Source: Candidatus Eisenbacteria bacterium (GTDB lineage Bacteria; Eisenbacteria; RBG-16-71-46; JASEGR01). From it: DNA of 43,528 nt. Made by a program: the position numbers and the translations under genes. This document shows positions 2,333-17,780 of this stretch, piece by piece. Under the pieces are notes generated by a model. It searched no databases. It saw nothing but the letters and a program-made list of their open reading frames with translations, and had not been told where the DNA came from. Within the stretch, counting starts at the first letter, position 1, and each line of letters opens with the position of its first letter. The stretch covers positions 1-43,528 of the forward strand of contig JASEGR010000016.1 in NCBI GenBank assembly GCA_030017955.1, written 5' to 3'.

Positions 2333-3241
2333 ATGAATAAGCATCTAACCTTTTTTCCGATTCTGGTCTTTTTATGGGCAGCTTTTCTCCCGGCAGAAGT
2401 CCGAGGAGGTAACGGTGTTCTCGGGGTGGAAGTCTGCAGAGGCTGTCATGAGGACCGCTACGCAAACTATTCGATGTCCACACACGCCCAAAAAGGAATC
2501 CCGAATAGTCCAGCCAGCAAGGATGGGTGCGAATCTTGCCACGGGCCGGGGGCTGCCCATGTGGAGAAAAGCGGCGAAAGAGGCGTGGGGATATTTATTT
2601 TTGGCAAGAGGATCGCAGATGCCACGGAGAAGTCTGCAAAATGCCTAGCCTGTCACGGTGAACAGAAAGACCTGTCCTTCTGGGACATAGGTAAGCACAA
2701 GGCCCAAGGTGTTTCTTGTGACAACTGCCATACGGTTCATTCCGGCACGCGGAAGAATCTGAAAGCCCCCGAGCCCGACCTCTGCAATATCTGCCATCGG
2801 AGCATACGATCCCAGGAAAACAAGCAGTCCCACCATCCCATAAGAGAAGGGAAAATGAAATGCACGGACTGCCACGATCACCACGGAGGTTTTGGCCAGA
2901 AGATGATCAAGGCGAACGAAGTGAATGAACTCTGCTACAACTGTCATGCAGAAAAAAGAGGTCCCCATATGTGGGAACATCCTCCGGTGGAAGAGAATTG
3001 CCTGAGCTGTCATACCCCGCACGGGAGCAATGTTTCCAAACTTCTGGTCAGCAGAGTCCCGCTGCTTTGCCAAAGCTGTCACGACTGGACTCGACATCCG
3101 GGGACGATCTACACCAGTTTTGAGACTTTCCAGGGAGCTACTCCTTCAAACAAGATGTTTGCCCGAAATTGTCTGAATTGCCACACAACAATTCATGGAA
3201 GCAACGCCCCGTCCACAAGAGGCGAAAGACATGTACGATAA
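2333..3241 (+). CDS. DmsE-type decahaem c-type cytochrome
   Basis: 302 residues with a signal peptide (about residues 1-25) and exactly ten CxxCH motifs, with first cysteines near residues 35, 66, 104, 129, 151, 177, 201, 223, 246 and 280. Size, haem count and the barrel gene next door fit the DmsE/MtrA-like family, which carries electrons across the periplasm into an outer-membrane porin. The start follows AGAGGGGG. It is separated by 12 bases from the MtrB-like gene, so the two are surely co-transcribed. No terminal reductase and no CymA-type quinol dehydrogenase is in the window, so the electron donor and acceptor are unknown; extracellular metal or DMSO-like acceptors are inferences from the family. 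Confidence 0.9.
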   Translation: MNKHLTFFPILVFLWAAFLPAEVRGGNGVLGVEVCRGCHEDRYANYSMSTHAQKGIPNSPASKDGCESCHGPGAAHVEKSGERGVGIFIFGKRIADATEKSAKCLACHGEQKDLSFWDIGKHKAQGVSCDNCHTVHSGTRKNLKAPEPDLCNICHRSIRSQENKQSHHPIREGKMKCTDCHDHHGGFGQKMIKANEVNELCYNCHAEKRGPHMWEHPPVEENCLSCHTPHGSNVSKLLVSRVPLLCQSCHDWTRHPGTIYTSFETFQGATPSNKMFARNCLNCHTTIHGSNAPSTRGERHVR

Positions 3242-3253
3242 GGGAGAAAGTCA

Positions 3254-5368
3254 ATGAGGTCGAAGATATTTGTTTGCGCCATGATTTCCGGCGTGATCGT
3301 GTTCTCGAGTGTTTCTGCTCAAGAGAAAAAATCTGAGACAGAGGCTTCGGTTACCTGGATCACTCCGGAAACGGATGGACAGAGGGGCAAATTCAATGAG
3401 TACCGGGATATCAAGGATGGAGTCTATGTCGGGGTCGAGACCAGGTTTGACAAGGAGAAATACTATCTGGATTTCAGGGCCAAGGATGTAGGGTACAAGA
3501 CTCAGAGGCACGACCTTGAAGGCAGGAAATGGGGAAAGCTTGGCTTTTTCCTCCAGTACAACGAGCTTCCTCACAACCTCACTTACGGAGCAACGAGCTT
3601 CTACACGGGAGTCGGAGGGGCCAACCTGACTTATGTCTCACCGACTCCGGCCAACGGATCGCCGAACAAAGACATATCTACCTGGACCGCTTTTGACTAC
3701 TCCACGGAGAGAAAAAACTACGGGGGAGGCCTTAGACTGGAAATGCTGAAACCGTTCTTTCTTGATGCCTCACTCAACAGGGAAGAAAGAAGTGGAGTAT
3801 ATCCGGTCGGAGTCGCGGGGACCAGTCCGGGAGGTCCTGCCATTGAGCTTCCCGCACCGACCAGCTACGTGACCGACGATTTGAAGCTGGAAGCCGGATA
3901 TGCCAGGAACCCCTTCTTCGTTTCGCTCAGCTACATTCACAGCAATTTCAAGAACAACAACTCTGAATTGGTTTTTGTCAACCCGTCAACCAAGAATACG
4001 GCGGCGACCAGCGATACGTTTATGCTCCCGCCAAGTAACGATTGTGACAAACTGGGCCTGAGCGGCGCGGTCAAGCTCCCATTTCGAAGCAAGCTCAGCT
4101 TCAACGCAACTTCTTCGAATACGCAGTCCCACGTCAACCTTCTTACCTCCTACGTGGCAGATGTCACCGGCGGAAGAACCTCTGTCACTTCTTTGCGCAA
4201 ATACGTTTTCGATGGGAAGACAGACACCAGAAGTTACAGATCTACGTTCACTTCCAGTCCGTTCTACTTCCTGGATGGAAAGGTGTTCTACAAATACTAC
4301 AACAGGGAGAATAAGTCAGACAGCATAAGGACAACAGTCGGAACAACGACTTTGGTCAACCACTTGTTTGATTATCGAAAGGCCGGCTACGGAGCAGAAC
4401 TAGGTTTCAAATTACCGGCGAGTTTCTACTTCACAACATCTTACACCCACGGCCGCATCGAGAGGGAGGAAAGGGACGATATCCCCACAAACACAGACGA
4501 CACCTACGGGACTGAACTGCGATGGGGCGGATCGGATTTCATGGTGGCCAGGATGGGTTATGAGAGGCTAGTGAGAAGAGGAGCTTTCGTGGGACGGACA
4601 GTCACAGGTGCCACGGATGCCGCCAATATCGAACGGTATCAAAGACGGTTTGATGCGGCCCCCAGAGACCGGAATGCCTACAAGGCCATGTTAGATGTCT
4701 TTCCAACGGAGAACGTCAATATCAACCTGGGGTACAGATACAAAGATACGAAGCACAAAGAGACGATCCTTGGGGTGCGGAGCGACAAAAGGAATGAATT
4801 CAACGTGGATGGGGATTACCTGATCGCAAAGAGAGTGAGACTTTTTGCCTACGTCGATTACGAGCACGCCAAGATTGATCAACAGGAAAGACGGTTCGAT
4901 ACTGGAACGAACGCCGATCCTGGAGGAAGCTCGGATTCCCTTTCTTACACGTGGCAAGTTGCTCAAATAGAATCAAACTATGGCTATGGAATAGGGACAG
5001 ACGTTCACATCCTTCCACAGAAGCTGGCTCTGAAGTTGCAGCACAGCTCTTCCAAATCGGATGGAAGCGCTGATTATACCATCGCCTTTCTTCGTGTTGG
5101 GAGAACGCAGGACAACATAGATATCTCCAACTGGGGAAGATACAGGACAAGGTATTATCTGGGCGAGTTGACGTATAACCTCACAAAAACCTTGTCCTTT
5201 GGTGCCGGCTACATCTACACGGTATTTGCTTCCGACGACGCACAGTACAGCGGATACAAGTTTCTATATCCCGCGGGGTCAACGAACGGCAATTTTCTGA
5301 CCGGAGCGTACGCGGACTTGACCTATAAGGCGAACATCGTGTACTTCAGTGTTGCATATCGGCCATGA
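3254..5368 (+). CDS. MtrB/PioB-family decahaem-associated outer-membrane barrel
   Basis: 704 residues with an N-terminal signal peptide ending near SVSAQ. The rest is strongly amphipathic beta-strand sequence rich in Y, F, R and D, typical of a large outer-membrane barrel. The N-terminal region (EYRDIKDGVYVG..., YLDFRAKDVGYKTQ) resembles MtrB/PioB proteins, which wrap a decahaem cytochrome to pass electrons across the outer membrane. The CxxC seen near the N-terminus of Shewanella MtrB is not present. Adjacency to the ten-haem cytochrome is the strongest support. No MtrC/OmcA-like surface cytochrome follows. Confidence 0.88.
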   Translation: MRSKIFVCAMISGVIVFSSVSAQEKKSETEASVTWITPETDGQRGKFNEYRDIKDGVYVGVETRFDKEKYYLDFRAKDVGYKTQRHDLEGRKWGKLGFFLQYNELPHNLTYGATSFYTGVGGANLTYVSPTPANGSPNKDISTWTAFDYSTERKNYGGGLRLEMLKPFFLDASLNREERSGVYPVGVAGTSPGGPAIELPAPTSYVTDDLKLEAGYARNPFFVSLSYIHSNFKNNNSELVFVNPSTKNTAATSDTFMLPPSNDCDKLGLSGAVKLPFRSKLSFNATSSNTQSHVNLLTSYVADVTGGRTSVTSLRKYVFDGKTDTRSYRSTFTSSPFYFLDGKVFYKYYNRENKSDSIRTTVGTTTLVNHLFDYRKAGYGAELGFKLPASFYFTTSYTHGRIEREERDDIPTNTDDTYGTELRWGGSDFMVARMGYERLVRRGAFVGRTVTGATDAANIERYQRRFDAAPRDRNAYKAMLDVFPTENVNINLGYRYKDTKHKETILGVRSDKRNEFNVDGDYLIAKRVRLFAYVDYEHAKIDQQERRFDTGTNADPGGSSDSLSYTWQVAQIESNYGYGIGTDVHILPQKLALKLQHSSSKSDGSADYTIAFLRVGRTQDNIDISNWGRYRTRYYLGELTYNLTKTLSFGAGYIYTVFASDDAQYSGYKFLYPAGSTNGNFLTGAYADLTYKANIVYFSVAYRP

Positions 5369-6522: not shown

Positions 6523-7362
6523 CTATGGTGATATCTGCTCTCTCCGTCCAGTTGACCTAAGTCGAAAGACGGAGGCGATCATCGCTACGAGAAAGACGAT
6601 TCCAAACGTACACACGATCGCCGCACCGGTAGGCAGATCGAATGCCGCTGAGAAAAAGAGTCCTGCAAGGCTGGCAATTATGCTCACGCCCCATCCTAAA
6701 AGTAATTGGGTCCGAAGCCTGGACGACAAGAGCATTGCGCACGCGGCAGGGACCACGAGATAGGAGAAGATGAGCAGAACACCTGCGACTTCCACTGACG
6801 ATGTTACAACCACCCCAAGGGAAACATAGAAAAGAAAATCCCACCACGTGATTGAGAGACCCTGTCTTTCGGCCAGGTCTGGCTCTATTGAGATCGTGAG
6901 AAAGGGCTTTCTGAAAGCGACATGAAACAGGCCAATGACGCCGCAAATAATTGCCAGCCTTATCACATCCTGCCAACCAGCGAAGAGGATATTGCCGACA
7001 AGCATGTGTTTGATATGTTCCATTTCCGAAGGGCTTCGGCTCAGGACGATTATCGATGCGGAGGTCGTGACCACGTATACGATGCCGATAACCGCCTCCT
7101 GAGGGACGCTTTTCCCCTTGAGGCGCGTAAGGGCAAAAATTGCAGCACCGGCCAGAGCAAAGGCGAACGAAAACAAATACGCCGGTGCAGTATGCAACCC
7201 CACACCAAGGAGTATTCCGATCATAGCGCCCAGCGCTGCAATCTGCGCCAGTGCCAGATCTACAAAGATCACTTGGCGTTCAATAATGTGGATGCCTAGA
7301 TAGGCATAGATCCCGCTGAGGACTGCGCACAGGACAAACGGTATCACCATTAGCTCGAACAT
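6523..7362 (-). CDS. metal ABC transporter permease (ZnuB/MntB family)
   Basis: 279 residues from the ATG at 7362, preceded by AGGAGGTG; the longer frame is rejected. About eight hydrophobic segments are visible. The motif LALAQIAALGAMIG near the N-terminus and EVAGVLLIFSYLVVPAACAM in the C-terminal half are typical of ABC-3 permeases for zinc or manganese. It overlaps or abuts the binding-protein gene, whose stop lies at 7373. No ATP-binding subunit is encoded next to it. The metal cannot be told from the permease alone. Confidence 0.88.
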   Translation of the reverse strand: MFELMVIPFVLCAVLSGIYAYLGIHIIERQVIFVDLALAQIAALGAMIGILLGVGLHTAPAYLFSFAFALAGAAIFALTRLKGKSVPQEAVIGIVYVVTTSASIIVLSRSPSEMEHIKHMLVGNILFAGWQDVIRLAIICGVIGLFHVAFRKPFLTISIEPDLAERQGLSITWWDFLFYVSLGVVVTSSVEVAGVLLIFSYLVVPAACAMLLSSRLRTQLLLGWGVSIIASLAGLFFSAAFDLPTGAAIVCTFGIVFLVAMIASVFRLRSTGRREQISP

Positions 7363-7372
7363 GCCACACCTC

Positions 7373-8290
7373 CTATCGCGGAGCCTGGAGCGCGTCTGTA
7401 AGTCGGGCGATGTCATTGTCGAGAAGATCTATGTAAGTGTCTGTTCCCTCGAGCCCGCCGACCGAGGGAGCCAGTACCGCAACTCTTGCGGCAGCCTTTG
7501 ACGCGATTGACTGGGCAGTTCTCAGGTTGAAATATGGCTCCATGACTATGACTCTTACATTCTCGGCCTTCATCTTGCCAACGAGCGAGGCGATATGCGA
7601 CGGCGTCGGCGGTATGCCCGGTTTTGGTTCTACGAATCCGACGATAACGAGCCCGAAACATTGCGCAAAATAGGGCCATGAATTGTGATATGCGACGATT
7701 TTTGCGCCCCGATACGGCTTCAACCGTTCTTTCCATCTGTGAATCGCCGCATCGAGCCTTTTAGCATACTCTTCGTGATTCTTTCTGAAGTAATCAGCGT
7801 TCGAAGGGCTTATCTCGCACATCTTGGCGAGTATAGAGCTAAGAATGGGCTTGGCATTTTCAGGGCTGATCCAGTAGTGCGGGTTGCCATAGATATGTAT
7901 GTCGCCCATACGGCTGTCTATCCTGCCTTCCGGGATTTCCAGCTTGACAATAGGCAACGATGCATCAAGGTAACCTTTAGCCCCCTCCATAACGCTGGGA
8001 TTTCGTGCTGCGTCAATAAGGCTTTCTACCCACTGATCAAGATCCATTCCCACTCGAATAAGTAGGTTTGTCTTTTTGAGTTGCACGACCATCGAAGGCC
8101 GCGGCTCAACCGCATGTGGGTCCTGATCACCGCGGGAGAGGCTGGTGACGACTACACGATCCATGCCGATGTTCCTTGCAAAGTCAGCCATATCGGACGT
8201 CGTGGTGACTATTCGCAGTCTGCTATCTCCGTGGGCAACACCTGCCGTTAAAGCCGCTGCCGAAATCATGGCTATCAATAACCGAGTCAT
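7373..8290 (-). CDS. metal ABC transporter substrate-binding protein (ZnuA/TroA-like)
   Basis: 305 residues with a signal peptide (1-21). It has the cluster A-I binding-protein pattern: VTTTSDMADFARNIG at the start, GDQDPHAVEPRPS with His59, GNPHYWISPENA with His138, a third His in VAYHNSWPYF, and EPKPGIPPTPSHI before the C-terminal lobe. These residues normally form the Zn or Mn site. The long histidine-rich loop of many ZnuA proteins is absent. It lies between the permease and the outer-membrane protein genes, with gaps of about 10-15 bases, indicating one operon. Confidence 0.88.
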   Translation of the reverse strand: MTRLLIAMISAAALTAGVAHGDSRLRIVTTTSDMADFARNIGMDRVVVTSLSRGDQDPHAVEPRPSMVVQLKKTNLLIRVGMDLDQWVESLIDAARNPSVMEGAKGYLDASLPIVKLEIPEGRIDSRMGDIHIYGNPHYWISPENAKPILSSILAKMCEISPSNADYFRKNHEEYAKRLDAAIHRWKERLKPYRGAKIVAYHNSWPYFAQCFGLVIVGFVEPKPGIPPTPSHIASLVGKMKAENVRVIVMEPYFNLRTAQSIASKAAARVAVLAPSVGGLEGTDTYIDLLDNDIARLTDALQAPR

Positions 8291-10193: not shown

Positions 10194-10676
10194 ATGAAAC
10201 CGACCTCGGAGACTCACGACAATAAGCTTTGGCAGAAAGAACTGCAACATCGAATGAATTACCTCAAGGAACGATTCACACGTTCCGGCGTTAAGCTAAC
10301 GCACCAGCGCCTGGAGATTTTCCGCGAGGTAGCGATATCCGTTGACCATCCGGATGCAGAGACGATTTGCAAGGGCGTTCGCGAAAGAGTCCCCACGGTG
10401 TCGCTGGACACGGTGTATAGAACACTATGGTCGCTGCTGGATCTCGGGATCATAACCACCATAGGACCTCCTCGCGGGAGAATGCGATTTGACGCGAATA
10501 TGGGTTCTCACCATCACTTCATCTGCACGAAGTGTGGAATGACCCGTGACTTTTGCAGCAAGCAGTTTGACCAATTGAAGATTCCGGACACTGCGAAGAT
10601 GTTGGGAAGAGCGGAAAAGACGCAAGTGGAAGTCAGAGGCGCTTGTTTGAGATGTTCGAAGAAGAAGGGCAAATAA
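10194..10676 (+). CDS. Fur-family metalloregulator, PerR-like
   Basis: 160 residues. The winged helix is clear (LTHQRLEIFREVAIS, VPTVSLDTVYRTLWSLLDLGII). It is followed by RFDANMGSHHHFICTKCG and a C-terminal CLRC, the two CxxC pairs of the structural zinc site. RFD before the His cluster and DF after the first CxxC pair place acidic residues as in PerR, which senses peroxide through Fe/Mn. A zinc-sensing Zur role is the alternative, because zinc/manganese uptake genes lie just upstream in the opposite direction. No Shine-Dalgarno precedes the first ATG; an internal ATG at 10254 also lacks one. Confidence 0.85.
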   Translation: MKPTSETHDNKLWQKELQHRMNYLKERFTRSGVKLTHQRLEIFREVAISVDHPDAETICKGVRERVPTVSLDTVYRTLWSLLDLGIITTIGPPRGRMRFDANMGSHHHFICTKCGMTRDFCSKQFDQLKIPDTAKMLGRAEKTQVEVRGACLRCSKKKGK

Positions 10677-10799: not shown

Positions 10800-10886
10800 A
10801 TGCTTCGCGAGGCGCAGGGCGAGCCGGTCGAAATCATTTCCGAATTGGAGAGCCAAGATCGGCTCTTACAGGGATCGTCAGGATGA
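10800..10886 (+). CDS. possible 28-codon ORF coupled to the sigma-54 activator gene
   Basis: A short frame (MLREAQGEPVEIISELES...) starts behind GAGGGGAG and ends in a TGA that overlaps the ATG of the next gene (ATGA). The activator gene has no strong Shine-Dalgarno of its own, so translational coupling is plausible. The peptide matches no family known to me and could instead be a gene remnant. The rest of 10677-10799 shows no gene. Confidence 0.3.
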   Translation: MLREAQGEPVEIISELESQDRLLQGSSG

Positions 10887-12265
10887 GGAAACGCAAGAAG
10901 ATCAGGAAGCCCGCCGTCTTGACACCGGAGGAAACTATTCTCGAGAGCATCTCGGACGGTGTTTTCACGGTGGATCTGGATTGGCGCGTCACATCGTTCA
11001 ACCGGGCTGCCGAAGACATCACAGGTGTGGTGCGCTCGGAGGCGATGGGTCGGCGCTGCTCCGAGGTATTCCGCTCCAGTATGTGCGGCGCCGGCTGCGC
11101 TCTTCAGCGAACGCTCAAAACGGGTAAACCCATCATCGGCAAGTCCGGGTACATCATCGACGCGGACGAGAACCGCATTCCCATCAGCATCTCCACGGCC
11201 GTGTTGCGGGATACCGAAGGCCGCGTGGTCGGTGGAGCGGAGACCTTCCGGGACCTGTCTGAGGTTGAGGCCTTGCGCCGGGAACTCGAGGGTCGATTCC
11301 GAGTTGGCGACCTCGCAAGCCGCAGCCCTCTGATGCAAAGGGTATTCGAGGCCGTGCCCGTCATTGCCGTCAGTCCCAGTACGGTCCTTATTCTCGGGGA
11401 AACCGGGACGGGCAAGGAACTGATAGCGCGTACTATTCACGAGCTTAGCCCACGGCGGGACGGCCCATTCATACCGGTCAATTGCGGGGCATTACCGGAT
11501 ACTCTTCTCGAATCCGAACTCTTCGGCTACAAGGCTGGCGCGTTCACAGGGGCAAACAAGGACAAGCCTGGACGGTTTGCCATGGCACGGGGTGGGACTC
11601 TGTTCCTCGACGAGATCGGCGACGTGAGTCCGGCGCTCCAGGTGAGGCTCCTGCGGGTACTGCAAGACCATAGGTATGACCCGCTCGGAGCGACCCGCTC
11701 CGAGACGGCGGACGTCAGAGTCATCGTTGCCAGCAACAGGGATTTGGCGGTACAGATGCGCAAGGGTGCATTCCGGGAGGACCTCTACTACCGCGTGAAT
11801 GTGCTTCGCGTGGAGCTGCCACCACTTCGACGGCGCAAGGAGGATATCCCGCTTCTGGTAGATCAGTTCATTGAGAGATTCAACCGTCTGCAGCGTAAGT
11901 CTATCCAGGGGATCGCGGCCGAGACGCTTTCCTTGCTCATGGCTTATGATTGGCCCGGCAACGCGCGCGAACTGGAGAATGTCATCGAACGATCATTTGT
12001 CATCTGCCAGCAAGGTCTCATCGGCATCGGGCATCTGCCCGAGGAGTTGACGGCGCACAGCATGACGACAGGCGCGGACCTTAGCGTGCGATCAGCCCAC
12101 GATCTTGTTGACGCCCAAGCAATACGCGCCGCCCTGGATCGAAACCGCTGCAATCGGTCCGCTGCGGCCAGGGAGCTTGGCATTCACAAGACCACGCTCT
12201 TCCGCAGGATAAAGAAGCTGGGCATTTCCCTTCCCAGGCGGAACGGCCGCTCCCCCCAAGAATAG
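10883..12265 (+). CDS. PAS-AAA+-Fis sigma-54-dependent activator
   Basis: 460 residues. A PAS domain (about 15-125) carries cysteines at 59, 68 and 72 (CSEVF...MCGAGC), suggesting redox or metal sensing. The AAA+ domain (about 140-375) has Walker A GETGTGKE at 172, the sigma-54 contact loop GAFTGA at 219, Walker B GGTLFLDEI at 237, and arginine-finger region REDLYYRVNVLRVELPPLRRR. A Fis-type HTH closes the protein (NRSAAARELGIHKTTLFRRIKKLGI). It activates RNA polymerase holding sigma-54 from upstream sites. A near-consensus -24/-12 promoter and a perfect palindrome stand just downstream, before the first NifX-like gene, so the adjacent cluster is the likely target. Confidence 0.93.
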   Translation: MRKRKKIRKPAVLTPEETILESISDGVFTVDLDWRVTSFNRAAEDITGVVRSEAMGRRCSEVFRSSMCGAGCALQRTLKTGKPIIGKSGYIIDADENRIPISISTAVLRDTEGRVVGGAETFRDLSEVEALRRELEGRFRVGDLASRSPLMQRVFEAVPVIAVSPSTVLILGETGTGKELIARTIHELSPRRDGPFIPVNCGALPDTLLESELFGYKAGAFTGANKDKPGRFAMARGGTLFLDEIGDVSPALQVRLLRVLQDHRYDPLGATRSETADVRVIVASNRDLAVQMRKGAFREDLYYRVNVLRVELPPLRRRKEDIPLLVDQFIERFNRLQRKSIQGIAAETLSLLMAYDWPGNARELENVIERSFVICQQGLIGIGHLPEELTAHSMTTGADLSVRSAHDLVDAQAIRAALDRNRCNRSAAARELGIHKTTLFRRIKKLGISLPRRNGRSPQE

Positions 12266-12294
12266 TAGCGTCAGTGCACCTGGCCTTGCCTCCC

Positions 12295-12316
12295 ACAGTA
12301 GCAATCTTACTACTGT
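12295..12316 (+). promoter_or_regulatory. palindromic activator-binding site (putative UAS)
   Basis: ACAGTAG and CTACTGT flank an 8-base centre. The site lies about 85-105 bases upstream of the -24/-12 promoter, the normal distance for an enhancer-binding protein, and next to the gene for such a protein. Recognition by that protein is inferred. Confidence 0.6.
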
Positions 12317-12400
12317 ATAGCCCAAAACTATCCCCTCAATGAGATTCATAACTCTCTATCTTTCAATGTATTGTCGCGGATTCCACGGCTCGTCTCATCC

Positions 12401-12415
12401 TGGCACGACAAATGC
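12401..12415 (+). promoter_or_regulatory. sigma-54 (-24/-12) promoter
   Basis: CTGGCACG is followed by ACAA and ATGCT. The GG and GC pairs have the exact 10-base separation, and only one position (A for T in TTGC) differs from the TGGCACG-N4-TTGC consensus. Transcription would start near 12427, with the Shine-Dalgarno and ATG 12452 just downstream. Confidence 0.8.
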
Positions 12416-12451: not shown

Positions 12452-13078
12452 ATGATGAAAGCGGCATTCGCAGCCTGGAACAATCGAATCGCGCCGGTCT
12501 TCGATGTGGCGGGCCAGATTCGCCTTGTGGAGACCGAGGACGGACAGGTTGTCCGCGAGACGCAAGAGACGATCACAGACGATCTGCCAGCTCAGAAGGC
12601 ACTTCGTCTTGCAGAACTGGGCGTCGGCATCCTGGTTTGCGGTGCGATATCTAAACCCTTGCATGAAATGGTCGCTGCCTACGGCATCCGGGTTGTTCCT
12701 TTCATGGCCGGCAGCCTGCAAGAAATCATCGGGGCTTGGCTCACTGGGGACCTTGATTGGAATGTCTTTGCAATGCCGGGCTGCTGCGGGCGAAGGCGGC
12801 TCGGGGGAACGTATGGCCTACACCGGGAGGATTACGTTATGAACGGAAGAAAAGGTGGTGGGATGGAACAAGGCGGGGACCGGGGTCAGGGCGGAGGAGG
12901 CGGTCGAGGTCAGGGGCGAGGTGGACAAAGACCCGGTCGGATGGGGGGCCCCAAAGCCGCCGGACCGACCGGTACCTGCGTGTGCCCTAAATGCGGGCAG
13001 AGGGAACCACACGAACGTGGTGTACCCTGCGTCGAGCGTAAGTGTCCGAAGTGCGGGGCCGCGATGAGCAGGGAATAG
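12452..13078 (+). CDS. NifX-like cofactor-binding protein with Gly-rich linker and zinc ribbon
   Basis: 208 residues from ATG 12452, chosen for GGGAG six bases upstream. The first about 110 residues form a DiNase_FeMo-Co/NifX-like domain (MKAAFAAWNNRIAPVFD, LAELGVGILVCGAISKPLHEM, YGIRVVPFMAGSLQEIIGAW). A run of about 45 residues rich in G, R and Q follows. The C-terminus has two paired CPKC motifs (CVCPKCG-REPHERGVPC-KCPKCGAAM), a zinc ribbon or rubredoxin-like knuckle. NifX-like proteins hold Mo-Fe or Mo-Cu sulfide clusters or their precursors. It is the first gene behind the sigma-54 promoter. It need not mean nitrogen fixation, since no nif structural genes are present. Confidence 0.85.
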   Translation: MMKAAFAAWNNRIAPVFDVAGQIRLVETEDGQVVRETQETITDDLPAQKALRLAELGVGILVCGAISKPLHEMVAAYGIRVVPFMAGSLQEIIGAWLTGDLDWNVFAMPGCCGRRRLGGTYGLHREDYVMNGRKGGGMEQGGDRGQGGGGGRGQGRGGQRPGRMGGPKAAGPTGTCVCPKCGQREPHERGVPCVERKCPKCGAAMSRE

Positions 13079-13109: not shown

Positions 13110-13496
13110 ATGCCAGGAGGAGATCGAACCGGACCGATGGGAATTGGCCCAATGACCGGCCGCTCGGCCGGGTACTGCGTAGGTTTCGGAATGCCTGGGT
13201 ACGCGAATCCAATGCCAGGATGCGGTTCCGGCATTGCCTTCGGACGCGGGCGAGGCTCTTGGGGCTTCGGCGGCGGTGGACGTGGATGGCGGCATTGGTT
13301 CTACGCCACTGGTCAGCCGGGATGGTTGAGGTTTGGTTCCTACGCCATGCCTCACGGATACCCGATGCCGTACCAGCAGCCTGACCCGGAAACGGAGAAG
13401 AAGGTGCTGAAGAACCAAGCCGATGCCTTGCAGTCGGAACTGGACTTCATCAAGAAGTGTCTCGATGAAATCGAAACGAGAACCGCGGCGGAATGA
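13110..13496 (+). CDS. DUF5320-type Gly-rich small protein
   Basis: 128 residues from ATG 13110 behind GAGGAGG. The N-terminus MPGGDRTGPMGIGPMTGRSA is the hallmark of DUF5320 proteins. A central Gly/Trp/Tyr-rich part follows, then a short coiled coil near 95-125 (EKKVLKNQADALQSELDFIK). Such proteins regularly accompany NifX-like and MinD-like ATPase genes in orange-protein-type operons; no biochemical role is known to me. One cysteine pair (YC, GCGSG) could bind a metal. Confidence 0.82.
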   Translation: MPGGDRTGPMGIGPMTGRSAGYCVGFGMPGYANPMPGCGSGIAFGRGRGSWGFGGGGRGWRHWFYATGQPGWLRFGSYAMPHGYPMPYQQPDPETEKKVLKNQADALQSELDFIKKCLDEIETRTAAE

Positions 13497-13593: not shown

Positions 13594-13965
13594 ATGAAAA
13601 TCATCTTCACAACTTCGGGTAATAATCTGAATGGCCCGTTGGACAGCCGGTTTGGCCGGGCCCCCAAGTTTCTCGTTTACGATCTGGATAGCGAGAACTT
13701 CGAGGTGGTGGACAACCAGCAGAACCTGAACGCGGCTCAGGGGGCGGGAATCCAATCGGCGGAAACCGTGGCCAGGTTGGGAGCGAAAGCGCTCGTGACC
13801 GGGCATTGCGGCCCGAAAGCGTTTCGTGTGCTCCTGGCGGCCGGAATCAAGATTTTCAACACCGATTCCCCCACGGTGGCCGTGGCTCTTGAGCGATACC
13901 GCGCGGGGAAACTAACCGAGGCAAAGGCCGCTGACGTTGAAGGGCATTGGGCTAAGCGTGGTTGA
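13594..13965 (+). CDS. NifX/NifB-type dinitrogenase-cofactor family protein
   Basis: 123 residues from ATG 13594, preceded by GAGGGGGTGACA. A single DiNase_FeMo-Co domain: MKIIFTTSGNNLNGPLDSRFGRAPKFLVYD at the start, NAAQGAGIQSAETVARLGAKALVTGHCGPKAF in the middle. The GHCGPKA segment, next to the ligand region in the family, carries a Cys. It is the closest of the three paralogues to a classical one-domain ORP/NifX protein that carries a metal-sulfur cluster. The next ATPase start is 90 bases away, with a short overlapping frame between. Confidence 0.88.
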   Translation: MKIIFTTSGNNLNGPLDSRFGRAPKFLVYDLDSENFEVVDNQQNLNAAQGAGIQSAETVARLGAKALVTGHCGPKAFRVLLAAGIKIFNTDSPTVAVALERYRAGKLTEAKAADVEGHWAKRG

Positions 13966-14059
13966 ACTGGTGCGCCGCGAAGGCAATGTGCTTCATCTTG
14001 GCGGGGAAACGGCTCGACAACGCGGCCGTCGGGGTTACGCGGGCGGTGGCACCTCATGA
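13958..14059 (+). CDS. possible 33-codon coupling ORF
   Basis: A GTG-started frame (VVELVRREGNVLHLGGETAR...) overlaps the end of the NifX-like gene by eight bases and stops in TGA, overlapping the ATG of the ATPase gene (ATGA). No family recognised. It could be a real coupling peptide or a chance frame in GC-rich DNA. Confidence 0.2.
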   Translation: MVELVRREGNVLHLGGETARQRGRRGYAGGGTS

Positions 14060-14910
14060 TTCTTGCGGTCGCTTCAGGCAAGGGCGGAACCGGCAAGACG
14101 ACGGTCTCCCTTAACCTGGCAAAGGCGCTTGGCTCTCCCGTGCAGCTTCTGGACTGCGACGTGGAAGAGCCGAATTGCCACCTGTTTCTCAGGGGCACCA
14201 CACGCGAAGCGGAAACCGTCAGCATTCCGGTCCCGCAAGTCGATGAATCCCTTTGCGACGGTTGCGGTGAGTGCGGCCGTTTCTGCGCATACCACGCCAT
14301 CGTCTCATTCGGGACCGAGACGCTCGTCTTCCCCGAGATATGTCACGGCTGCGGGGGATGCGCGATGGTATGCCCCAAGAAGGCCATTCACGAAGCTGAT
14401 AACCGCATAGGAGTTGTCGAGACGGTCCAGGCGGAGAACATCACTCTGATCCAGGGGCGACTTGACGTCGGTGTGGCCATGGTCCCACCTCTCATCCGCG
14501 CGGTGAAGGCTCGACTGAGAAAAGGCGCGCCCGCAATCCTGGACGCGCCTCCGGGAACGTCATGCCCGGTGATCGCGACACTCCGGGGAGCGGATTTCGT
14601 CGTGCTCGTCACAGAGCCGACGCCCTTCGGCCTGCACGATCTGAAACTGGCCGTGGATATGGTGCGCGAACTCCGAATTCCGTTAGGCGTGGTCGTCAAC
14701 CGGGTTGGGATCGGCGATGGCCGGGTGCATGCGTTCTGCGTGAAGAAAGACATTCCCATTCTCCTGGAAATTCCGGATGACCGGCGGATCGCCGAAACGT
14801 ATTCCCGCGGCGGGCTCGTTGTTGATGCGCTTCCGGAGTATCGGAGATCATTTGTCTCTCTGTCTTCCACGTTGGATCATTGGGCAACACATAGCGAAAA
14901 GAAGTACTGA
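14056..14910 (+). CDS. MinD/ParA-type ATPase with two inserted 4Fe-4S sites (ORP-cluster type)
   Basis: 284 residues. It has a deviant Walker A SGKGGTGKTT at 7-16 and DCDVEEPN at 33-40. A ferredoxin insert carries two complete CxxCxxCxxxC motifs (Cys67-70-73-77 and 96-99-102-106). The DAPPGTSCPVIATLRGADFVVLVTEPTPFG switch region follows. Proteins of this kind (CobQ/MinD superfamily with P-loop and ferredoxin) occur in pairs in orange-protein operons, where they form a complex with the NifX-like protein. ATP-driven delivery or assembly of a metal-sulfur cluster is the likely role, by family inference. Confidence 0.9.
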   Translation: MILAVASGKGGTGKTTVSLNLAKALGSPVQLLDCDVEEPNCHLFLRGTTREAETVSIPVPQVDESLCDGCGECGRFCAYHAIVSFGTETLVFPEICHGCGGCAMVCPKKAIHEADNRIGVVETVQAENITLIQGRLDVGVAMVPPLIRAVKARLRKGAPAILDAPPGTSCPVIATLRGADFVVLVTEPTPFGLHDLKLAVDMVRELRIPLGVVVNRVGIGDGRVHAFCVKKDIPILLEIPDDRRIAETYSRGGLVVDALPEYRRSFVSLSSTLDHWATHSEKKY

Positions 14911-15025
14911 TAGGGGATGACTGCACAAAGACTATGCTTCGGTATGGCGCGGTGATAAGGGTGCCTGATTCCGCCGGCCATACTGAAAGAAAAACGACAA
15001 CGATCAGGTGATTCAGGAGGATACC

Positions 15026-16210
15026 GTGGACGCAAAGCATCTCGGCATAAATTCAAAGCTGGTCCATGCAGGAATGGCGAAGGATCCCTTTGGGAGCGTC
15101 GTCACTCCAATATACCAAACGTCGACTTTTTCGTTCGACAACGCCCAGAACGGCGCGGATCGGTTTTCGAAGAAAGTGGACGGGTATATCTACACGAGGA
15201 TCGGGAATCCCACCATTGCCGCCTTGGAGAAGTGCGTGGCGCAGCTTGAAAGAGGCGTTGGGGGCGTCGCAACGAGCTCCGGCATGAGTGCTGTGACGAC
15301 GGCGTGCCTTGCCTTGCTGCAGCAGGGCGACCATGCAGTAAGCACCGCATCGGTGTACGGTCCTTCCCGCACATTGATGGAAAAGCATCTTTCGCGATTC
15401 GGGGGGCGATCAACCTTCGTGGATACTTCTGATGCGGAAAACGTCCATCATGCCCTACGGGCGGAAACGAGGCTAATCTATGTCGAAACCCCGTCGAACC
15501 CAATGATGCAAATCACGGATATTCAAGCCATGGCCGATCTCGCTCATGCCCACGGGGCACTGCTTGCGGTGGACAGCACATTTGCATCGCCTTGCCTGCA
15601 ACAGCCATTGGTTCTTGGCGCCGACGTGGTGTTGCATTCCGTCACCAAGTTTATCAACGGGCATGCGGATGTGGTGGGGGGAATTCTGGTGGCGCGGACG
15701 GATGAAATCCATTGCCGGCTCCGGGAAATCATGATCCTGACGGGATGCAACATGGATCCGCATCAGGCGTATCTTGTACACCGGGGGCTGAAAACCCTTT
15801 CGCTCCGGGTGGAGCGCTCCCAGAAGAACGCTCAAATTCTCTCCCAATGGCTCGAGTCGCGGCCGGAAATCTCTTGGACAAGATATATCGGGCTGCCATC
15901 CCATCCACAGCACGAACTTGCGAAAAAGCAGATGCTGGGATTCGGCTCCATGATCAGTTTTGAAATGCGCGGGGGCCTCGACGCAGGACGGCGATTGATG
16001 GACAGGCTGAGATTGGCCACGCTTGCCGTTTCACTGGGCGGCGTGGAGACACTGATCGAACATCCGGCATCCATGACCCATGCCGGAATACCGCAGCAAG
16101 AAAGGGAGGCCGTCGGCATTTCAGATGGTTTGGTCCGCCTTTCGGTTGGGATCGAGGATGTCGAGGATCTCATCGAGGATCTCCGCCAGGCCTTTGACAG
16201 CAGGCAGTAG
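15026..16210 (+). CDS. gamma-family PLP enzyme (methionine gamma-lyase/cystathionine-lyase type)
   Basis: 394 residues from GTG 15026, which has AGGAGGATACC upstream. Clear Cys/Met metabolism fold: YTRIGNPT at 56-63, SSGMSAV at 84-90, ETPSNP at 154-159 and the PLP lysine in HSVTKFINGH (Lys208). The enzymes cleave or exchange sulfur amino acids, releasing methanethiol or H2S, or forming cystathionine. The active-site cysteine typical of methionine gamma-lyase (in YGCT) is replaced here by Pro in VYGPSRTLM, so strict methionine gamma-lyase activity is uncertain. It lies between the two Fe-S ATPase genes, so a role in supplying sulfide for cluster assembly is attractive but inferred. Confidence 0.88.
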   Translation: MDAKHLGINSKLVHAGMAKDPFGSVVTPIYQTSTFSFDNAQNGADRFSKKVDGYIYTRIGNPTIAALEKCVAQLERGVGGVATSSGMSAVTTACLALLQQGDHAVSTASVYGPSRTLMEKHLSRFGGRSTFVDTSDAENVHHALRAETRLIYVETPSNPMMQITDIQAMADLAHAHGALLAVDSTFASPCLQQPLVLGADVVLHSVTKFINGHADVVGGILVARTDEIHCRLREIMILTGCNMDPHQAYLVHRGLKTLSLRVERSQKNAQILSQWLESRPEISWTRYIGLPSHPQHELAKKQMLGFGSMISFEMRGGLDAGRRLMDRLRLATLAVSLGGVETLIEHPASMTHAGIPQQEREAVGISDGLVRLSVGIEDVEDLIEDLRQAFDSRQ

Positions 16211-16259
16211 CATCCCGCCCCACAATGATGAATGCAAATACATGAATGAAGGAATGCAC

Positions 16260-17144
16260 ATGAAGGAACTCGTTATCATCAGCGGCAAGGGAGGGACGGG
16301 CAAGACCAGTGTAACGGCGTCGTTCGCTGTGCTTGCAAACCGGCCGGTTATAGCAGACTGTGACGTAGATGCGGCAGACTTGCACTTGGTTCTGGCGCCC
16401 GATGTCATCCGCCGCGCAAAATTCACCGGAGGCAAAAAAGCAAGGATCAAACCCGGTCATTGCATTGCCTGTGGCAAACGCGAGGAACTCTGTAACTTCG
16501 ATGCAATTACTTTCGACGGTCACGGCAACGGCCGGGTGGACAAAACCTTCCGTATCGATCCCATCGGCTGCGAGGGCTGCGGCGTCTGCGCGTGGTTCTG
16601 TGCAGAGAATGCGATAGAATTTGGCCCGGTGGTTAACGGTGAATGGTATGTTTCAAGAACACGCTGTGGTCCCATGGTTCACGCCCGACTGGGCGTGGCA
16701 GCCGAGAACTCCGGCAAACTGGTCTCCACGGTCCGCCGGGAAGCCCTCCGTATCGCCGAGGAGGAACATCGTTCTCTGATCATCGTGGACGGTCCGCCCG
16801 GGATCGGTTGCCCCGTCATCGCCTCGGTGACCGGCGCAACGCTGGTGCTGGTTGTCACGGAGCCCACAGTTTCCGGGGAACACGATTTGGAGAGGGTTCT
16901 TTCCCTGACGCGGCATTTCAACATTCCAACCGCGATCTGTGTGAACAAATGGGACCTCAACCCCGAGATGACGGACCGCATTGAGGACAAGGCGCGCCAG
17001 GCGGGCGCGCAGATCGCGGGCCGTATCCGGTATGACCACGGCGTGACATTGGCCCAGATGCGGGAGCGGGCGGTAGTGGAAACCGAAGCGCCATCCGCAA
17101 AGGATATTAGACAGCTATGGGACCATCTTGCCTGTTGGGTGTGA
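16260..17144 (+). CDS. second MinD-type ATPase with ferredoxin insert, one Cys ligand missing
   Basis: 294 residues from ATG 16260 behind GAAGGAA (ATG 16254 and 16242 are also in frame). Walker A SGKGGTGKTS at 8-17, DCDVDAAD at 33-40, DGPPGIGCPVIASVTGATLV as switch region, and NKWDLNP. The insert has C68-IA-C71-GKREEL-C78, so the usual third Cys (position 74) is Arg. The second motif, C104-EG-C107-GV-C110-AWF-C114, is complete. The first cluster, if present, would have three Cys ligands and an open iron site. It is the partner of the ATPase at 14056 in an ORP-type cluster. The spacing from the PLP gene is 49 bases. Confidence 0.9.
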   Translation: MKELVIISGKGGTGKTSVTASFAVLANRPVIADCDVDAADLHLVLAPDVIRRAKFTGGKKARIKPGHCIACGKREELCNFDAITFDGHGNGRVDKTFRIDPIGCEGCGVCAWFCAENAIEFGPVVNGEWYVSRTRCGPMVHARLGVAAENSGKLVSTVRREALRIAEEEHRSLIIVDGPPGIGCPVIASVTGATLVLVVTEPTVSGEHDLERVLSLTRHFNIPTAICVNKWDLNPEMTDRIEDKARQAGAQIAGRIRYDHGVTLAQMRERAVVETEAPSAKDIRQLWDHLACWV

Positions 17145-17159
17145 CATACGGGAGGCGTC

Positions 17160-17219
17160 ATGGCATCTAAGCCTGGAATGGATGGAGATTCATATCGGCG
17201 GGGGAGAATAATTGATTAA
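17160..17219 (+). CDS. possible 19-codon ORF
   Basis: ATG behind GGGAGGCGTC, ending in a TAA that overlaps the TTG start of the TauE/SafE fragment. No homology recognised; probably a remnant or coupling frame. Confidence 0.2.
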   Translation: MASKPGMDGDSYRRGRIID

Positions 17220-17421
17220 CCTCGCGTTGGTTCTGACCGCCGGTCTGTTGGCCGGTGTGCTGGGAGGTCTACTAGGAATCGGCGGCGGCACCGTTCTCGT
17301 GCCCGGGCTTTCGTTCACCACTACGCGGCGACCCCAACGGCTGAGATCATCCGCAACATCGTCAATTACATTGCGGTGTTGGACGGAGTCAAAGCTGCCG
17401 AAGAGACGGCGAACCCCATGA
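17212..17421 (+). pseudogene. truncated TauE/SafE (TSUP) membrane protein fragment
   Basis: From TTG 17212 (Shine-Dalgarno GGGGGAG) the first about 35 residues are the N-terminus of a sulfite/sulfonate-exporter-like protein (LALVLTAGLLAGVLGGLLG then IGGGTVLVPGLSF). After that the frame becomes low-complexity Arg/Ser sequence. Another frame over 17310-17420 reads HYAATPTAEIIRNIVNYIAV, then LDGVKAAEETANP, which looks like the tail of a different protein. This is a fusion scar between two truncated genes. An intact TSUP has about 250 residues and 7-8 helices. Confidence 0.7.
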
Positions 17422-17441
17422 CAAGTAAGGAGGAAAAACCC

Positions 17442-17780
17442 ATGAGAATTGCGATTCCGTTGGCGGATGGAATACTCTCGACGCATTTCGGACACTGCGA
17501 GCATTTTGCCCTCGTTGATGTGGACACCGCAACGAAAAAACTTGTCAGGCGGGAGGACATCCATGCGCCTCCACATCAGCCAGGGCTGCTGCCTCCCTGG
17601 CTGGCGGAGCGCGGCGCGACCATAATCATCGCCGGTGGCATGGGTCAGCGCGCTCAAGGATTGTTCACCGAATGTGGCATTCAGGTTTTGGTGGGAGCAC
17701 CTGCAGAAACGCCGGAAAAGCTAATCTCTGATTACCTTACAGGCACACTCGGTGTTGGAGAGAATGTCTGTGACCACTGA
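17442..17780 (+). CDS. NifX-like protein, third paralogue
   Basis: 112 residues from ATG 17442 behind AGGAGG. DiNase_FeMo-Co fold: MRIAIPLADGILSTHFGHCE at the start (Cys in FGHCEHFALVDV), HAPPHQPGLLPPWLAERG and ATIIIAGGMGQRAQGLFTE in the middle. The FGHCE and HQPG...AGGMG features match ORP-like proteins of sulfate reducers that bind metal-sulfur clusters. It overlaps the thioesterase start by 17 bases. Three paralogues in one cluster suggest a set of carriers or scaffold subunits. Confidence 0.88.
   Translation: MRIAIPLADGILSTHFGHCEHFALVDVDTATKKLVRREDIHAPPHQPGLLPPWLAERGATIIIAGGMGQRAQGLFTECGIQVLVGAPAETPEKLISDYLTGTLGVGENVCDH

Follow-up and report, generated by a model that had tools for sequence, protein, structure and literature searches.

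At glnA, activated by NtrC, and at norVW, activated by NorR, multiple dyads 100–150 bp upstream of the promoter nucleate an AAA+ oligomer that acts on the sigma-54 polymerase. The nearest described system to the locus analyzed here, set beside it by description, is OrpR (DVU2106) of Desulfovibrio vulgaris Hildenborough, for which the available excerpts of the original reports give palindromic activator sites at −131 and −88 of the orp1 and orp2 sigma-54 promoters (PMC3897727), with IHF between the activator sites and the promoters and with DiNase and Mrp/MinD-type targets (PMC3897727, PMC4641369). According to the same excerpts, OrpR activates a divergent pair of operons and acts as a repressor at its own sigma-70 promoter (PMC3897727), carries a GAFTDA motif and has local target operons (PMC3897727, PMC4641369).

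The DNA analyzed here (the window) is a stretch of 43,528 nt from Candidatus Eisenbacteria bacterium (GCA_030017955.1, contig JASEGR010000016.1, forward strand). Judged by comparison with related loci, it contains a real sigma-54 control region that is larger than previously read, is dedicated to one operon and is part of a conserved family. More specifically, we put at about 0.85 the probability that positions 12262–12415 serve as the control region for a sigma-54 switch with one dedicated target, in which an OrpR-like activator with a three-cysteine PAS domain drives the downstream operon.

Like OrpR, as the excerpts describe it, the activator of the window is a one-component protein with palindromic sites upstream of a −24/−12 promoter and with predicted DiNase and Mrp/MinD-type targets in a local operon. 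Two features looked for in an OrpR orthologue, GAFTDA and two divergent flanking operons, are absent and set the window apart from that description: its activator carries GAFTGA, and whereas OrpR combines two divergent operons and autorepression with two palindromic sites, one per operon, the window has a single operon downstream and two sites in tandem at one promoter, the first overlapping the activator stop codon. The locus would share with glnA and norVW the multiple upstream dyads, the AAA+ oligomer and the sigma-54 polymerase, but differs from both in its sensor domain, in the letters of its sites, in its single dedicated target and in the stop-overlapping site. MrpORP (NF041136), in the available part of its description (PMC6345978), comprises the same domain types as the window cluster, a MinD/Mrp ATPase with Fe-S domains and DiNase, which in the window are separate proteins. 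Four cluster proteins score 134, 49.3, 28.2 and 25.1 bits against that model, below its equivalog cut-off of 450, and none of 9 genomes searched for MrpORP as a route to OrpR had a match above this cut-off. A conserved family of such activators with paired sites was not found in the open-access literature searched. DiNase-domain proteins, DUF5320 and MinD/ferredoxin ATPases have no settled role, and the recurring arrangement makes this little-studied gene switch easy to find and to test.

The activator and the genes downstream of it

The gene at 10883–12265 (plus strand), already recognized as an activator gene in the sequence-only reading, encodes a one-component sigma-54 activator with a PAS domain, an AAA+ domain and a Fis-type HTH (LGIHKTTLFRR); its Pfam matches are Sigma54_activat (5.3e-66), PAS_9 (3.1e-12) and HTH_8 (2.4e-9). 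The hallmarks of a sigma-54 activator, namely the AAA+ sigma-54 domain, GAFTGA and an HTH, are thus all present. Species genomes were scanned with an alignment of the PAS domain, and the best 80 of 555 confirmed relatives were used together with the window; these come from Desulfobacterota-type bacteria, Eisenbacteria, KSB1, Omnitrophota, Zixibacteria, Nitrospirota and others, and 6 of the 80 activators ran off the contig. To judge from this set, many bacteria that are unrelated to one another, most of them anaerobes, share the arrangement. Among the best 80 relatives, a C-x8-C-x3-C motif is found in all 80 loci, and the corresponding PAS cysteines Cys59, Cys68 and Cys72, like the GAFTGA of the window activator, are conserved in 45 of 45 aligned relatives. 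In a phylogenetic tree of these 45 activators and seven GAFTDA or divergent paralogues, the 45 form a separate clade (98/93); the paralogues belong to two Desulfovibrionaceae (L108, L109, L111 and L112) and to the class of the window (L015, L016 and L018).

The first gene of the cluster, which the sequence-only reading had placed after the promoter, begins at 12452. This gene (12452–13078; PF02579, 30.5 bits against a cut-off of 26.3) encodes a Nitro_FeMo-Co (NifX-like, DiNase) protein in which the DiNase domain is followed by a glycine-rich linker and a C-x2-C zinc-ribbon-like tail. It is succeeded on the plus strand by genes for a DUF5320 protein (13110–13496; PF17253, 7.1e-25), a second DiNase-domain protein (13594–13965; PF02579, 8.8e-23) and a MinD/Mrp-type ATPase with inserted 4Fe-4S ferredoxin domains (14056–14910; CbiA 3.8e-16, Fer4 8.1e-10). 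A PLP enzyme of the methionine gamma-lyase/cystathionine family (15008–16210, plus strand, with a putative start codon; PF01053, 5.3e-149; best NCBIfam match below cut-off) would, from its position, be encoded on the same transcript. Further along the same strand lie a second MinD/Mrp-type ATPase with a ferredoxin domain (16260–17144, the start likely being 16260 within the open reading frame 16080–17144; CbiA 2.8e-9, Fer4_7 9.7e-6) and a third DiNase protein (17442–17780, the start likely being 17442 within 17376–17780; PF02579, 3.7e-19), which resembles the C-terminal half of MrpORP and accounts for the 134-bit match, over positions 251–365 of NF041136. In 42 of 47 loci (best 80 of 555 plus the window), the gene directly after the promoter is a DiNase counterpart with the start motif MK-AF--W--RIAPVFD; three more loci have one no further than approximately 1.1 kb away. 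In D. desulfuricans, the DiNase/ferredoxin cluster Ddes_1864–1867 is 3.6- to 5.4-fold down in a growth-response table, the part of the source drawn on here (PMC5701242). The decrease would fit a redox-tuned operon, albeit in another organism; such a physiological role is what we infer for the window. Between the last two genes of the cluster, at approximately 17213–17320, a short stretch resembles the N-terminal part of a membrane exporter (AGVLGGLLGIGGGTVLVPG) but ends abruptly ahead of the third DiNase gene (17442); judged by eye, it is possibly a decayed gene.

A single-sequence fold prediction of the PAS region, with a mean pLDDT of 38.7, is too poor to be used. The three cysteines would most likely gate the switch through an oxygen- or redox-sensitive Fe-S cluster, the mode of redox sensing that a 2021 paper reportedly proposed for the PAS domain of OrpR, and a C-x8-C-x3-C motif in the sensor domain of anaerobes, encoded beside Fe-S proteins, fits that proposal. 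A serious if somewhat unlikely alternative keeps the sigma-54 control region as described and gives the PAS cysteines another signal, be it a ligand, a metal or thiol chemistry. It draws on the absence of a fourth invariant cysteine from the PAS domain (in the 45 aligned relatives, the near-invariant cysteines 201 and 375 lie outside it), on target genes that could equally serve metal or sulfur handling, and on the available excerpts of PMC3897727 and PMC4641369, in which no signal is named for DVU2106. Gating by an Fe-S cluster is the reading that we prefer.

The control region and its recurrence among relatives

The palindrome ACAGTAG-N8-CTACTGT (ACAGTAGCAATCTTACTACTGT) reported in the sequence-only reading is exact and constitutes UAS2, at 12295–12316 (plus strand, ACAGTAGC-AATCTT-ACTACTGT). 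About 85 bases on, again as that reading had it, the −24/−12 promoter element TGGCACGACAAATGC (TGGCACG-ACAA-ATGC) occupies 12401–12415 on the plus strand, with exact spacing in its GG-N10-GC core (GG at 12402–12403, GC at 12414–12415). What had been overlooked is a further upstream copy of the site, UAS1, at 12262–12283 (plus strand, ATAGTAGC-GTCAGT-GCACCTGG), which overlaps the TAG stop codon of the activator (12263–12265). Because the activator site is double and only its second copy had been noted, the region called complete at 12295–12415 was not, and the control region extends over 12262–12415. Measured from start to start, UAS2 follows UAS1 by 33 bp and the −24 element follows UAS2 by 106 bp; the relative L013/L022 has these three elements at 33 and 107 bp, the promoter counterpart being TGGCACTACACTTGC. 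The right halves of UAS2 (ACTACTGT) and UAS1 (GCACCTGG) deviate from the consensus in the window. A tentative IHF-like sequence at 12361–12373 (plus strand, TTTCAATGTATTG) has one mismatch to WATCARNNNNTTR, and the genome contains two IHF/HU-family genes. The gene for sigma-54 itself, rpoN, for which a check had been proposed, is present in the genome (one Sigma54_DBD match, E 2.2e-63).

Taken alone, the palindrome is within chance: the window contains 7 exact 7+7 dyads with a gap of 8 and 56 with gaps of 0–12, and the palindrome is the sole such dyad within 12266–12401. The case therefore rests on comparison. The promoter has a consensus score of 20.0, the maximum on both strands of the window, where the only other site reaching at least 18.5 scores 18.5; the plain promoter pattern with up to 2 mismatches gives 15 matches in the window against 11.6 expected by chance, and 12401–12415 is the only one of the 15 with a single mismatch.

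Among the best 80 of 555 relatives plus the window, 73 loci (the window included) extend far enough for a promoter search, and 47 of them have a GG/GC element scoring at least 17.5 at 60–165 nt past the stop codon of the activator, compared with 139 of 4,679 control intervals (3.0%) of equal length from the same loci; at a threshold of 18.5, the corresponding numbers are 42 of 73 and 35 of 4,679. A promoter-like site is absent from this interval in 28 of 75 activator loci with a stop (best 80 of 555 plus the window), and these 28 were excluded from motif training. In four of them (L021, L033, L086 and L053), a second frame or another gene intervenes and the pair lies further on (2.8 kb in L053), and in three more the two sites are at +127/+159 (L029), +79/+112 (L074) and −2/+31 (L098); the remaining left-out loci have no pair near the stop.

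A symmetric 22-bp motif learned from the 47 control regions, with no spacing rule imposed, has the consensus AGAGTAGC-N6-GCTACTCT. Two sites are predicted in 42 of the 47 loci (best 80 of 555 plus the window), and 41 of these 42 pairs start 31–34 bp apart, 25 of them at exactly 33 bp. When each locus was left out in turn, the 31–34 bp spacing was retained in 42 of 47 loci, and the top site of the control region was the top of the whole scanned stretch in 46 of 47; in the window, UAS2 is that top site with 18.6 bits and UAS1 scores 13.3 bits. Motif matches of at least 15 bits number 63 in 7,290 bp around activator stops and 23 in 597,792 bp elsewhere, and many of the latter are further pairs, 32–34 bp apart, in loci outside the training set. 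The distances from UAS2 to the −24 element fall into clusters (82–83, 91–95, 103–109, 114–118 and 127 bp), a pattern that would follow from a need for activator and promoter to lie on the same helical face. Periods of up to 12.5 bp fit as well as or better than 10.5–11 bp, and strict helical phasing is therefore not claimed. Collectively, the recurrent site, the promoter, the neighbors and the fixed spacings, together with rpoN, are best explained by sigma-54 control from an upstream activator site, as the sequence-only reading had proposed.

The overlap of UAS1 with the stop codon is a compact layout for which no counterpart was found in the open-access papers searched. Among the best 80 of 555 relatives plus the window, 40 loci have the start of UAS1 at −8 to +3 relative to the stop, and 35 of these have a TAG stop, compared with 5 of 35 activators lacking the overlap and 80 of 384 other long open reading frames from the same loci. 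Since TAG is part of the motif, this excess describes the overlap and does not prove function. The overlap in most loci could mean that part of the conservation is coding, and UAS1 is the weaker copy in the window; hence, UAS1 might be a mere coding remnant around a conserved stop codon, with UAS2 alone bound. We consider this quite improbable, as the site adopts three registers relative to the stop (starts at −7, −4 and −2 in 18, 8 and 8 of the 40 loci, together 34), all of which yield TAG and leave the distance to UAS2 unchanged, and in some loci it is found at 0 to +2, at +17 or further downstream, with the 31–34 bp to UAS2 still preserved. The spacing is thus tied to UAS2, not to the stop.

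In the mechanism that we infer with both sites bound, two dimers of the activator would sit in tandem on UAS1 and UAS2, with starts 33 bp or approximately three helical turns apart, and this would aid assembly of the AAA+ ring. The DNA between UAS2 and the promoter would bend or loop, perhaps with IHF/HU, in which the IHF-like sequence at 12361–12373 may help. The ATPase of the activator would then open the sigma-54 polymerase complex waiting at 12401–12415, and transcription of the operon, with its genes for DiNase proteins, DUF5320 and MinD/ferredoxin ATPases, would start at approximately 12426.

The paired site as a search pattern and its letters

The palindrome had been put forward as a handle for finding other targets, an expectation that was not borne out in its own genome. 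The exact palindrome occurs once in the window and once in the 3.1-Mb assembly. A copy with 1 mismatch, at C87:10181, was rejected as another target, being inside a coding frame (a methyltransferase-like open reading frame of L003), and the remaining matches have 3 mismatches. With up to 3 mismatches, the pattern is found at 46 places per strand across the genome compared with 179 for a reversed control pattern; thus, nothing besides the exact palindrome stands out.

The 55-bp double site can be searched without a protein query. We built a pair model of it from the DNA of 38 loci, those of the window and of G009 included; L058, whose first site falls within coding sequence, was for this reason left out of the alignment (A2). 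The model (R1) scores 27.1 bits over 12262–12315, the window itself being one of its 38 rows, and matches the window's genome at one place. Among 45 genomes, besides that of the window, only G009 matches, plus a match in G005 that, with an E of 0.57, was taken as chance. G047 belongs to a phylum other than that of the window; of 297 genomes searched from that phylum, 24 have a match at E≤0.01, one place each. The search is lossy, with 19 candidates scored in each genome, and it overlooked a site already known, that of G047, from which training locus L048 comes; 24 of 297 is therefore a lower bound. Two of the matches, L138 and L151, repeat loci already used for training; without them, 22 out-of-sample matches remain. 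An activator gene ends −26 to +94 nt from the pair in 18 of these 22, and a −24/−12-like site of at least 18.5 accompanies 20 of 22. In L147 and L158, a DiNase gene is downstream of the pair with no activator in view, and in L137 a fragment of a GAFTDA activator lies nearby in the opposite orientation. The DNA signature thus predicts the location of the switch and its activator in phyla without genetics. Adjoining such pairs in six loci (L145, L146, L148, L152, L153 and L155) are GAFTDA activators with the same cysteine motif; therefore, this class of site also occurs with activators other than GAFTGA proteins and may well extend to OrpR. The pair at L140 (G199:C11) has neither an activator nor a DiNase gene; this good UAS pair, in the middle of the locus, and TGGCACATAAGATGC precede an open reading frame with a CxxCH motif, possibly an extra target of this activator family.

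The recognition helix of the activators reads LG(I/M)HKT or HKS, and the letters of the half-site suggest a simple code between activator and site. Position 6 of the half-site is C in 5 of 116 half-sites of HKT activators (29 loci) and in 30 of 48 of HKS activators (12 loci). Outside the training set, the counts are 0 of 20 half-sites for HKT (5 loci) and, for HKS, 31 of 48 (12 loci). Of 58 loci, 53 have the site class that matches their helix class. The activator of the window is of the HKT type, and position 6 is A or T in all four of its half-sites. The helix changed at least seven times on the tree, with 3 changes forced by supported branches. Tests that allow for relatedness, with 2 supported independent pairs in one and 3 in the other (sign test, median p 0.5), did not reach significance; therefore, the tracking of the recognition helix by the site letters is suggestive, not proven.

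The palindrome could instead be the operator of another protein, for example, the Fur/PerR-family regulator encoded at 10194–10676, on the same strand and 0.2 kb upstream of the activator, leaving the −24/−12 promoter as the sole sigma-54 element. The window has many dyads of similar size, but the one considered here recurs beside the activator family in many phyla, at a fixed distance from the −24 element, and its letters appear to follow the activator's own recognition helix, which makes such an operator very improbable. That an unrelated palindrome met a near-consensus GG/GC match by chance, for which one might invoke the 7 comparable dyads of the window and the approximately 3% of control intervals scoring at least 17.5, is scarcely credible given the recurrence and spacing in relatives and the outcome of the DNA-only search.

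Distribution of the cassette and neighboring genes

Activators as close as E≤1e-160 are present in 3 of 47 genomes searched of the window's phylum, one of which (G023) lacks the site pair. The activator of the window is 80–81% identical to activators of other phyla versus 78% and 73% for the activators from its own class, the two sets of values being computed over different columns; this hints at spread of the cassette by lateral transfer, the branches around the window being weakly supported. Extending this idea, a self-contained cassette of three-cysteine PAS activator, stop-overlapping twin enhancer and DiNase/MinD Fe-S operon might travel between phyla as a unit, keeping its geometry (33 bp between sites, the promoter in roughly helical steps) and a one-residue code in which HKT corresponds to GTAGC/GTTGC and HKS to GTCGC. 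We regard this broader proposal as tentative and, as a whole, rather doubtful.

The closest activator within the class after that of G009 is that of G023 (locus L064; 73% identity), which is followed by neither a site pair nor a promoter. A short C-x2-C protein encoded there on the same strand resembles the tail of the first target protein in the window; upstream there is a peroxiredoxin-like open reading frame. In two other loci of the class, L016 and L018, GAFTDA activators precede DiNase genes, and repeated GTTGC/GCAAC-type dyads, downstream of the activator on the reverse strand, replace the UAS1/UAS2-type pair.

In the window itself, the minus strand at 6523–8290, near the Fur/PerR-family gene, encodes a ZnuA-type binding protein and an ABC-3 permease for zinc/manganese uptake. 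At 2333–5368, a multihaem cytochrome (Paired_CXXCH, 9.8e-35) is followed by an MtrB/PioB-type outer-membrane porin (6.8e-65), a pair suggestive of extracellular electron transfer through a porin-cytochrome conduit.
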